Positions 18,362 through 30,086 of a stretch of 54,781 nt of DNA are shown in pieces. The stretch is from Candidatus Peribacteria bacterium (GTDB taxonomy: Bacteria; Patescibacteriota; Gracilibacteria; Peribacterales; Peribacteraceae): contig CALRGQ010000003.1 in assembly GCA_943357915.1 (NCBI GenBank), positions 1 through 54,781 of the forward strand, in the 5' to 3' direction. The notes under the pieces were generated by a model. It saw nothing but the letters and a program-made list of their open reading frames with translations. It had not been told where the DNA came from and did no database searches. The position numbers and the translations under genes were made by a program. Position 1 is the stretch's first letter. The number at the start of each line of letters is the position of its first letter.

Positions 18362-19069
18362 TCACCCGAGTGTGAAAGGACTGAAATTCGTCTCGCGGTC
18401 GTAGTAGTCCTCGTGCTCAGCGTTCTTCAGAAATCCGGTGACAGCATACGTTACGGGCGTGAACAGAATCTCAATCGCCACTTTGAAGATGTAATTAGCA
18501 ACGATAAGACTCATCGCGATCTCCCACGGGAAGACTCCAAGCGCGCAGGCGATGAGCGTGAACACAACCGTATCAAAGCCTTGGCCCACAAGCGTCGAAC
18601 CGATCGTACGCATCCAAAGGCGCTTTCCAGACATCTTCACCTTCATCTTCGCAAGCAAATAGGAGTTACTGAATTCACCAAAGAAATATGCAACGAGACT
18701 CGCCACAATAATCCCGCCTGTAGCAACTCCGCCCAGGATAGCTCCGTACGCGTCATCTCCTGCGTACTGTAACCACTGCGCTTCGCCCGGCATTTTTCCG
18801 ATAAGAAACAGACACGCGCTCATGAGTAGTGCGGATGCAAATCCAGTCCAGATCACACGTCTGCTTTTTGCGTATCCGTAGACCTCCGTGAGAATGTCAC
18901 TAAAGATGTAACTGAGAGGAAACAGAAGCGTTCCAGCATCAAAACTGAGCCTGAGCCCATAAAGAGATACTCCCCAATCGACGATCTTCGCAGACGATGC
19001 GATGTTACTGATAAGAAGGACTGCGACGAACGCAGCCATGACGAAGTCAAAATATTTATGAGGGCGCAT
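18362..19069 (-). CDS. yhhQ: Queuosine precursor transporter (YhhQ/VUT family)
   Basis: 235 residues from the ATG at 19069 (MRPHKYFDFVMAAFVAVLLISNIASSAKIVD). A longer frame upstream would overlap the next gene. Six hydrophobic segments and the family signatures FDAGTLLFPLSYIFSDILTEVYGY, VAYFFGEFSNSYLLAKMK and GSTLVGQGFDTVVFTLIA are present. The family imports preQ0/preQ1 (or queuine) for tRNA modification. A tgt gene lies about 9.9 kb away in this window, consistent with salvage rather than de novo queuosine synthesis. Confidence 0.88.
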   Translation of the reverse strand: MRPHKYFDFVMAAFVAVLLISNIASSAKIVDWGVSLYGLRLSFDAGTLLFPLSYIFSDILTEVYGYAKSRRVIWTGFASALLMSACLFLIGKMPGEAQWLQYAGDDAYGAILGGVATGGIIVASLVAYFFGEFSNSYLLAKMKVKMSGKRLWMRTIGSTLVGQGFDTVVFTLIACALGVFPWEIAMSLIVANYIFKVAIEILFTPVTYAVTGFLKNAEHEDYYDRETNFSPFTLG

Positions 19070-19085
19070 GGATGAGAAGAGAAGC

Positions 19086-19427
19086 TCAGAGATAGAACCA
19101 GAAAAACACAATAAAGAATAGCGGAGCTGTGAGAAGCCCAGGCACATATTTCTTTTCAACTCCCGCCCACACGACATGCTGCACGCCGTTTGCGAACATC
19201 AGGTAATTGAAAAATGCCATCCATGTTTCCCGCGCAGGAAATGATGGCGCAAGTAGAACAAAGAACCAGAATGCCTGGAAACAAATTTCCCAAAACAAGA
19301 AAATCCAAAATGGCATCTTCACTGCGTACCATCGCTTGTGAAATCCCATCGATAACTCTTCGATCGAATGTAAGCACTGAACCGCTAATAGTGCCTTGAA
19401 TGCCGATGCAATCAATATTAGTTCCAT
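19086..19427 (-). CDS. HXXEE-type membrane protein
   Basis: 113 residues from the ATG at 19427; a GTG is four codons upstream. Four hydrophobic segments. HSIEE (HxxEE) lies near the N-terminus and GVQHVVWA in the third segment, the paired motifs of the HXXEE family. The family has no established function; the His and Glu pairs suggest metal binding. It lies 16 nt upstream of yhhQ on the same strand and is probably co-transcribed. Confidence 0.7.
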   Translation of the reverse strand: MELILIASAFKALLAVQCLHSIEELSMGFHKRWYAVKMPFWIFLFWEICFQAFWFFVLLAPSFPARETWMAFFNYLMFANGVQHVVWAGVEKKYVPGLLTAPLFFIVFFWFYL

Positions 19428-25738: not shown

Positions 25739-26125
25739 ATGGCCGACTTCGCACAAACAATGGCAAACGCAGGGAATCTCTCTGAAGAAGCACAAGTGAA
25801 AGCCGGTGCTCCGATGACTGGCGATATGGAGCAGGAGCATAAGGAATTCGTACAGACGATCTCACGGATGCTGGAGAGCGGAGAGATCGACATTACGAAG
25901 CCCGAGACATTTCTTAATAAACCGATCTATGAACAGTTCGAGCCTGAGTGGAAGACCAAAACAGATCTTGCACTGATCAACATCGCAACCTTGCTTGGCC
26001 ACATCTATGACTTCTACAAGTCAAAACAGACGCCTGATTCTTGCCCGCAGCTCGCAAATATGATCGAAGAGCTATGGCAGATGAAAATGCGTATAGAAGA
26101 GCATGGCGACGTGTTCAAATTTTAA
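25739..26125 (+). CDS. Conserved-looking hypothetical acidic protein
   Basis: 128 residues from the ATG at 25739. TACTAT (25726-25731) precedes it by exactly 7 nt, while ATG 25730 overlaps the -10. Soluble, mostly helical and acidic (MADFAQTMANAGNLSEEAQVK, EQEHKEFVQTISRMLESGEIDITKPETFLN). It ends with helices that could pack as a small bundle. No family recognised. Divergent from recG; its stop overlaps the stop region of the convergent miaA by 11 bp. Confidence 0.7.
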   Translation: MADFAQTMANAGNLSEEAQVKAGAPMTGDMEQEHKEFVQTISRMLESGEIDITKPETFLNKPIYEQFEPEWKTKTDLALINIATLLGHIYDFYKSKQTPDSCPQLANMIEELWQMKMRIEEHGDVFKF

Positions 26126-27098
26126 TCCAAACAATACGCGTATCACGTTTCCACCAGGTTCTGTGCCTTTTTGCGTAAGCACGGGTTTGGGACTCAATAG
26201 TCTCTGATAACGCTAGGATTGTATCTGTAGGTACACTCCCCCCTCCACCGGAACGGGGGAGGGGTCGGGGGTGGGGGCTTTCAAGCGCAACAAAGATTTC
26301 ACGATAGCCGACACTTTTCATAGCCGGATCGGAAATTTGCACGCCCTGTTTCTTGAGCTTTTCGACTTCCTGAATCCACCCACGTTCAAGCATCTGGTTT
26401 GTGCGGTTAGCGATTCGTTGATCAAGATCTTGTTTATCGACGTCCATACCAAACATCAAAAGATTGTACGGGCCTACGCTAGTTTTTTTCTGTGATGATT
26501 TGGTTTTGCCCGTCGACTCATAAATTTCCATAGCCCGTACGACATAGACTTTGTTCTGCATAGGAAATGACGCAGCGGTTTCAGGATCCAGAACAGTCAG
26601 TCGTTCATACAGTGTTTTGCCATGATCTGTCTCATATTCACGATTTAGCCGTTCTCGTATCGTAGGATCAGATGCTGCCATTGGCTGCAGACCGTCAACG
26701 AGCGCAGACACATACAACATCGATCCTCCGACAAGAACCGGAATATTCCCTCGTGCATGAATGTCCGCAATCACACGTTTCGCTTCGGACTGGTACCACG
26801 CAATCGTGCAATCGTCTGCTGGATCCAGAACATCGATCATGTGATGCGCTATCCCCTGCTGTTCCTCAGGCGTAATTTTAGCCGTTCCAATATCAAATCC
26901 CCGATAAAACTGACGTGAATCTGCATTCACAACTTCGGCTGTTTTTCCAAAGTTATTTTTGAGTTCATGTGCAAGCGAAATCGAGAAAGCTGTCTTGCCG
27001 CTGGCCGTCGGTCCAAGAATAACAATAAGTGGCTTCTGAGACTGTGAAACCATGAAATTTTCCAGAATCTGCCGTCGATGTTCAGTAGGAGTCATCAT
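26115..27098 (-). CDS. miaA: tRNA dimethylallyltransferase MiaA
   Basis: 327 residues from the ATG at 27098; another ATG follows directly and one at 27053. It adds a dimethylallyl group to N6 of A37 in tRNAs reading UNN codons. Visible: P-loop LGPTASGKTAFS, VNADSRQFYRGFDIGTAK (substrate motif), HHMIDVLDPAD, PVLVGGSMLYVSALVDG, and near the end GYREIF and TRAYAKRHRTWWKRD (the tRNA-contact QTRxYAKRQxTWFR region). Between GYREIF and QTRAYAKR an extra LESPHPRPLPRSGGGG stretch is encoded by a GC-rich palindromic repeat (see the separate entry). The insertion keeps the frame. Confidence 0.94.
   Translation of the reverse strand: MMTPTEHRRQILENFMVSQSQKPLIVILGPTASGKTAFSISLAHELKNNFGKTAEVVNADSRQFYRGFDIGTAKITPEEQQGIAHHMIDVLDPADDCTIAWYQSEAKRVIADIHARGNIPVLVGGSMLYVSALVDGLQPMAASDPTIRERLNREYETDHGKTLYERLTVLDPETAASFPMQNKVYVVRAMEIYESTGKTKSSQKKTSVGPYNLLMFGMDVDKQDLDQRIANRTNQMLERGWIQEVEKLKKQGVQISDPAMKSVGYREIFVALESPHPRPLPRSGGGGSVPTDTILALSETIESQTRAYAKRHRTWWKRDTRIVWIKI
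26236..26281. repeat. GC-rich palindromic repeat inserted in frame in miaA
   Basis: A C-rich arm (CTCCCCCCTCC) and G-rich arms (GGGGGAGGGG, GGGGGTGGGG) around ACCGGAAC. On the miaA strand it encodes SPHPRPLPRSGGGG, a peptide well known from palindromic repeats found in and between genes of many bacteria. It stands out from the surrounding base composition. Confidence 0.75.
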
Positions 27099-27205
27099 GA
27101 CAAGAATTTTTATCTTTGAACCATTGAAACACAAGTAGATAGTTTTGAACACTGCTGCGATGCATCGATTTAGGCTACAATAGTGAAGCAGATACAGGTT
27201 ACAGA

Positions 27206-27240
27206 CAAATAACTTTTCACTTTTCACTTTCAATTTTCCA
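27206..27240. repeat. Short degenerate heptamer repeat upstream of clpP
   Basis: ACTTTTC/ACTTTCA-type units in tandem in the gap between the miaA start and clpP. It resembles the other stop- or gap-associated heptamer repeats of the window. Confidence 0.5.
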
Positions 27241-28931: not shown

Positions 28932-30086
28932 ATGGAATGGAAAAATGTCCCGCCGCAAGCGGATTCAGCAGTTTCACTCGTTACGAAACTCATGCAGAAT
29001 GCAGGTATGTTCACGCTTGAAAAAACGACAAAGGCCGGACGCAAAGGTTTGATCACAACTGCTCATGGGATCATTCCCACGCCTGTATTCATGCCGGTTG
29101 CGACTGCCGGCGCAATGAAAGGCATTACTTTCAGTGACCTTCAGACTCTTGGTGCCGATATGCTGCTCTGCAACACATATCATCTGCATTTGGCACCAGG
29201 CGAAGCGACAGTCAAAGACGCCGGCGGTCTGCATTCGTTCATCGGTTGGGACAAACCGATCCTCACGGATTCCGGTGGCTTCCAGGTATTTTCGCTTGAG
29301 GCCATCAGAAAGATTTCAGATGAAGGCGTAGAGTTTAGGGATCACCGTAGCGGTGATCTGCATTTCATCGGACCCAAAGAAGCAATGCAGATTCAGCATG
29401 CTCTCGGTGCCGATATCATCATGTGTTTCGATGAATGCCCAGCGTCCACAGCACCACGAACTGCCCAGATCAAAGCCGTAGAACGCACGCTGCTCTGGGC
29501 AAAAATCTGCAAAACAGAGCATCTGAAACTTTCGAAGAAGAACAAAAATCCACCTCTACTATTCGGCATCGTCCAAGGCGGTCTTGAACGTGACCTTCGT
29601 GAGAAATGCGCAAAAGAACTGATCGCAATCGGCTTTGATGGTTACGCGATCGGCGGACTTGCTGTCGGTGAATCCGAAGAAGAAATGTACACGGTGCTGG
29701 ATTGGATCTGCCCGATGCTGCCAGAAGACAAACCACGGTACCTTATGGGCGTTGGTGAGCGTCATCAGCTCGTAGCCGCCATCGCTAAAGGCATCGATAT
29801 GTTTGACTGTGTCTCTCCGATGCGTGAAGCCAGGCACGGCAACCTCTGGCTTTCCGACGGCACGAAACTAAAAATCCGCCGCGCAGACTATGCAAATGAC
29901 CACTCGCCGATTGACCCCGACTCCCCTGCCCCAACGAGTCAGAAACATACAAGAGCGTATCTCAGACATTTACTTCAAATAGGTGAACGCTATGGTGAGA
30001 CGATTGCGTGTTTGCAGAATATGGCGATGATTCTGGGGACGATTCGGAGCGTGAGGAAGGAGATTGATGAAACTGAGGAGAGGTAA
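28932..30086 (+). CDS. tgt: tRNA-guanine transglycosylase (Tgt) lacking the zinc cysteines
   Basis: 384 residues from the ATG at 28932; ATG 29007 (MFTLEKTTKAGRKGLITTAHG) is closer to the usual start. It exchanges G34 of GUN-anticodon tRNAs for preQ1. Nucleophile and base-pocket motifs are present: ILTDSGGFQVFSL (Asp113), GIVQGGLERDLR, GYAIGGLAVGE, YLMGVGERHQLV and GIDMFDCVSPMREARHG. In the C-terminal zinc motif, normally DPxCxCxxCxxYSRAYLRHL, the sequence is DPDSPAPTSQKHTRAYLRHL, so all three Cys are replaced. The YhhQ-type transporter in this window would supply the precursor base. Confidence 0.93.
   Translation: MEWKNVPPQADSAVSLVTKLMQNAGMFTLEKTTKAGRKGLITTAHGIIPTPVFMPVATAGAMKGITFSDLQTLGADMLLCNTYHLHLAPGEATVKDAGGLHSFIGWDKPILTDSGGFQVFSLEAIRKISDEGVEFRDHRSGDLHFIGPKEAMQIQHALGADIIMCFDECPASTAPRTAQIKAVERTLLWAKICKTEHLKLSKKNKNPPLLFGIVQGGLERDLREKCAKELIAIGFDGYAIGGLAVGESEEEMYTVLDWICPMLPEDKPRYLMGVGERHQLVAAIAKGIDMFDCVSPMREARHGNLWLSDGTKLKIRRADYANDHSPIDPDSPAPTSQKHTRAYLRHLLQIGERYGETIACLQNMAMILGTIRSVRKEIDETEER

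Follow-up and report, generated by a model that had tools for sequence, protein, structure and literature searches.

Replacement of all four zinc ligands in a Peribacteria tRNA-guanine transglycosylase suggests a zinc-independent variant of the enzyme

The analyzed window, a stretch of 54,781 nucleotides from a contig (CALRGQ010000003.1, assembly GCA_943357915.1) of a Candidatus Peribacteria (CPR/Patescibacteria) metagenome-assembled genome, carries on its plus strand an open reading frame of 384 codons (28932..30086) encoding a tRNA-guanine(34) transglycosylase (Tgt) without zinc ligands. Profile searches gave 440.5 bits against TIGR00430 (curated cut-off 306.75) and 429 bits against PF01702 (cut-off 26.3) and, on this profile evidence, the product is a bona fide Tgt, of which the source genome (G000, 1.39 Mb, 97% complete) encodes a single copy. 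A MiaA-type tRNA dimethylallyltransferase (PF01715) is encoded close to tgt, on the minus strand at 26115-27233. A queuosine-precursor transporter of the YhhQ/QPTR type lies on the minus strand at 18362..19177 (PF02592, 161.7 bits versus a cut-off of 27.2). The annotated tgt start at 28932 probably lies too far upstream, with translation beginning at M21 (28992) or M26 (29007) instead, because the N-terminal extension of the nearest relative (L032, 79% identical) contains an in-frame stop. As the first 24 residues of the called protein also have a pLDDT below 50 in an AlphaFold2 model, this stop places the first 20-25 residues probably outside the true enzyme; an ATG at 28992 or 29007 agrees better with both the relatives and the model.

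Alignment with the E. coli enzyme revealed that the motif DPECDCYTC reads DPDSPAPTS in the window protein. The ligands Cys302, Cys304 and Cys307 (E. coli numbering) correspond to S331 (29922..29924, plus strand), A333 (29928..29930, plus strand) and S336 (29937..29939, plus strand), which bears out the loss of three zinc cysteines reported in the first-pass annotation. That annotation nevertheless understated the change, as it overlooked the fourth ligand, His333, which is replaced by Q362 (30015..30017, plus strand). With His to Gln added to the three cysteine exchanges, the loss of the site is complete: the CxCx2C motif and accompanying His of zinc-type bacterial Tgts such as those of E. coli and Z. 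mobilis are absent, with Ser, Ala, Ser and Gln standing in place of Cys, Cys, Cys and His. The zinc domain is considered one of two hallmarks of the Tgt family (PMC6165067). PMC9508795 lists Tgt among the enzymes whose activity requires zinc and, citing Chong et al. 1995, describes this requirement for the E. coli Tgt. Searches of the open-licence literature returned no report of a zinc-less Tgt.

Apart from the metal site, the protein shares with the zinc-type bacterial Tgts (E. coli, Z. mobilis; TIGR00430) the sequence family, the fold, the catalytic pair of aspartates and the preQ1-type pocket. The general acid/base D113 (29268..29270, plus strand; Z. mobilis D102) and the nucleophile D289 (29796..29798, plus strand; Z. 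mobilis D280), both assigned from the E. coli alignment, occupy invariant alignment columns. The base pocket GGLAVGE (residues 241-247; 29652..29672, plus strand) is identical in all Peribacteria sequences, which accordingly all show the pocket Val of GGL[AS]VGE found in bacterial preQ1-inserting Tgts. This Val is the preQ1-type residue (PMC3660597, PMC11570991), and Gly occupies the same position in the eukaryotic catalytic enzyme (PMC3660597). Queuine specificity was rejected on account of the preQ1-type pocket; among the Chlamydiota Tgts, moreover, zinc is retained by the queuine-type enzymes. The changed specificity that the first-pass annotation had offered as one explanation of the missing cysteines found no support, likewise because of the pocket. 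The eukaryotic QTRT1/QTRT2 subunits and archaeal TgtA belong to the same superfamily and have the same barrel fold as the Peribacteria enzyme; in contrast to it, QTRT1 and QTRT2 have retained their zinc site (PMC6165067, PMC4425180).

The replacement extends to the entire clade. None of the 48 distinct Peribacteria Tgts has the zinc site, the four ligand positions reading SSSQ in 33, SASQ in eight, SSGQ in six and SVSQ in one, so that the position of A333 holds Ser in 39, Ala in eight and Val in one, and that of S336 Ser in 42 and Gly in six. The check proposed in the first-pass annotation, namely whether close relatives keep the cysteines, thus came out in favor of a genuine loss, and a sequencing error as the source of the missing ligands was ruled out by the agreement of all 48. 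The positions of S331 and Q362 are invariant in 48 of 48 sequences, although these share an average pairwise identity of 65%, and in the Peribacteria set with duplicates retained, few columns of the protein vary as little as these two. Residues merely freed from zinc binding should drift, and the fact that these do not is our main reason for assigning them structural work. Peribacteria tgt is under purifying selection, with dN of 0.14-0.21 and dS above 2.3 or saturated. The open frame, this excess of dS over dN and the intact active site rule out a pseudogene.

Structure modelling, likewise suggested in the first-pass annotation, was performed with AlphaFold2 on a 65-sequence alignment and yielded a model with a mean pLDDT of 90.8, reaching 96-98 across residues 321-380 including the former zinc site. 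Superposition on Z. mobilis TGT gave TM values of 0.88/0.91 and an rmsd of 1.6-1.9 Å over about 354 columns. The confident model is consistent with a canonical Tgt fold in which the C-terminal subdomain is kept. On the question of the metal it is weak evidence, since AlphaFold2 often builds metal sites in their bound shape irrespective of any metal-binding capacity. Most dimer-interface positions of the zinc-type bacterial enzymes (E. coli, Z. mobilis) also appear to be kept in the Peribacteria Tgts. With an offset of 16 from Z. mobilis to Peribacteria numbering, the equivalents of Z. mobilis Y330 and E339 are kept in 48 of 48 sequences and that of H333 in 47 of 48, while that of W326, where E. 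coli has Tyr, is mostly His (41 of 48).

Given the clade-wide disappearance of all four ligands and the conservation of the residues that replaced them, the zinc-independent variant raised in the first-pass annotation is well supported, and we consider it likely that the protein is a functional Tgt inserting preQ1 in place of G34 in GUN tRNAs, with its C-terminal subdomain held together without a metal. A partner protein taking over the role of zinc, which had been raised alongside it, is neither supported nor contradicted by the evidence. In the proposed enzyme, G34 would be exchanged for preQ1 in tRNAs with GUN anticodons, while the Cys-Cys-Cys-His tetrad would have given way to Ser-(Ser/Ala)-(Ser/Gly)-Gln, presumably in a single swap that preceded the Peribacteria radiation and was retained since. 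The Ser/Ser/Ser/Gln replacement would most probably create a polar core that connects the loop with the long C-terminal helix through hydrogen bonds, by which the subdomain would stay together in the putative absence of metal. In view of the zinc need of the E. coli Tgt, such a metal-free site would call for compensating changes, none of which was pinpointed. As a strictly conserved, clade-wide alternative, the Peribacteria site makes the role of the metal testable by a four-residue swap between two natural enzymes, and it marks the zinc motif as a poor criterion for judging whether a Tgt is functional.

Alternatively, the enzyme could still bind a metal through new ligands near the former site, such as C360, H339 and H346. 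His is found at the H339 position in 41 of 48 Peribacteria Tgts, Cys at the C360 position in 48 of 64 sequences (duplicates not removed), and H346 is nearly invariant. However, about a quarter of the sequences have Gln, Ala or Ser in place of C360, and several have Tyr, Leu or Met in place of H339, with no covariation that would preserve the pair. C360 and H339 were the nearest residues to emerge when the alignment was inspected for the substitute set of Cys or His that the first-pass annotation had named as evidence against a zinc-independent site, and they are not conserved together in the clade. H346 corresponds to a His that is conserved in zinc-type Tgts as well (E. coli H317), and the invariant Ser and Gln would be poor zinc ligands. 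We therefore regard a relocated metal site as very unlikely and retain the zinc-independent variant as the preferred reading.

The first-pass annotation had further concluded from the YhhQ-type transporter that the queuosine pathway is in use, a statement that holds only in part. In addition to the transporter, the source genome encodes QueA (G000:C22), but QueG and QueH were not detected, either there or elsewhere among 70 Peribacteraceae genomes. Clear QueF is present in 10 of the 70, whereas the single QueF match in G000 stays below the cut-off. A complete pathway, in which QueA and either QueG or QueH follow Tgt, was therefore not found in the source genome. A relative, G018, contains the four substrate tRNAs (GTC, GTT, GTG and GTA), and tblastn searches with E. 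coli queries returned no credible queC, queD, queE or queF match for de novo preQ0 synthesis in this genome. The surroundings of tgt and yhhQ yielded no riboswitch. In the likely route, a precursor would be imported and inserted by Tgt, after which QueA would convert it to epoxyqueuosine; the final step would be either missing or carried out by some other enzyme. In several genomes a YhhQ/QPTR gene adjoins a clear QueF gene (G024:C14, G026:C47, G049:C15 and G031:C67) and two copies of YhhQ are present in many Peribacteraceae genomes, an arrangement suggestive of a pair for preQ0 salvage alongside a second transporter.

Of 74 Peribacteraceae genomes, 64 carry tgt, whereas in sets of 70 genomes queA was detected in only 22 and QueG and QueH in none. 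As queA is rare and the final enzymes were not detected, the pathway of this family may end at preQ1 or epoxyqueuosine. The same imbalance could also mean that the Tgt has lost or changed its activity, inserting another base, acting on another RNA or being encoded by a decaying gene. This reading appears unlikely to us, as neither the catalytic residues nor the preQ1 pocket vary, dN stays far below dS, and the source genome encodes QueA together with a precursor transporter. Moreover, the presence of tgt without the later pathway genes is a known situation, and use of preQ1 has been shown in Bartonella (PMC11570991).

A further explanation would be that the whole genome adapted to low zinc and that the Tgt site disappeared in this course, an idea to which the recurrence of the loss among small-genome lineages would lend some weight. 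We examined the Peribacteraceae relative G018, which encodes a zinc-less Tgt (L181), in 60 stretches covering 1.2 of 1.24 Mb. The Cys/His sites of the ribosomal proteins L36, S14 and L31 and the second zinc site of the RNA polymerase beta-prime subunit are all kept in this genome; tblastn detected neither of the ribosomal proteins L33 and L32. As the zinc sites checked in G018 are kept and only that of Tgt is lost among them, the change does not reflect a general zinc-sparing state, and we judge such an adaptation to be highly improbable.

The distribution of the site was then surveyed among 287 distinct Tgts from Peribacteria, the same class, the wider phylum, one Chlamydiota order and other bacteria. 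Zinc sites were missing in 17 of 83 other Tgts of the class, in 13 of 86 from the wider phylum (Patescibacteria), a sample with some members of the class among them, and in 14 of 30 of the Chlamydiota order, while no loss was seen among 40 Tgts of other bacteria, a set picked by similarity to the window protein and not a random bacterial sample. Alignment of the shortest loops is uncertain, and single letters in the most divergent sequences, such as L326, L344, L350 and L372, are unreliable; for some of these, separate readings disagree. In trees built without the zinc-site columns, at least 14 changes of zinc-site state were needed, both in a 135-row tree and in a 90-row mixture-model tree, and strongly supported branches alone forced seven and nine changes, respectively; such counts are by themselves blind to gain versus loss, and loss is the natural interpretation given that E. 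coli, other bacteria and eukaryotes have the site in common (PMC6165067). A single origin, with all zinc-less Tgts in one clade, was rejected in the 90-row tree (AU p = 0.0091). We give an even chance to the broader proposition that bacterial Tgt underwent at least nine conversions, on strongly supported branches, from a zinc-stabilized to a metal-free form, with hydrogen-bonding residues replacing the ligands in a stereotyped manner. If this were true, the zinc of Tgt would be an ancestral, swappable scaffold and not a requirement. The repeated loss, together with a clade-wide loss in which the catalytic residues are kept, makes the zinc of Tgt appear replaceable.

A parallel was found in Chlamydiota, where Tgts with a preQ1 pocket (L072, L202-L215) are also zinc-less and have their third and fourth ligands replaced by Ser and Gln, as in Peribacteria. 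In contrast to the Peribacteria enzymes, their first ligand is replaced by Leu or Thr and their loop is one residue shorter. In a 42-row tree, the Peribacteria Tgts form one clade (support 100/99), and the zinc-less Chlamydiota Tgts group with Lentisphaerota, also with support 100/99. A constrained grouping of Peribacteria with Chlamydiota was not rejected in this tree (AU p = 0.156), nor in the 90-row tree, where the constrained tree even scored higher (AU p = 0.569). Independent loss in the two groups, i.e. convergence, is favored by the careful 42-row tree; as their joint grouping is not rejected, the shared Ser-Gln pair may be due either to convergence or to a transferred gene. Within the Chlamydiota order of G305 (L202-L231), all of the inspected Tgts with a preQ1 pocket lack the zinc ligands, while all of the inspected ones of the queuine type (GG-SxGK) keep them.
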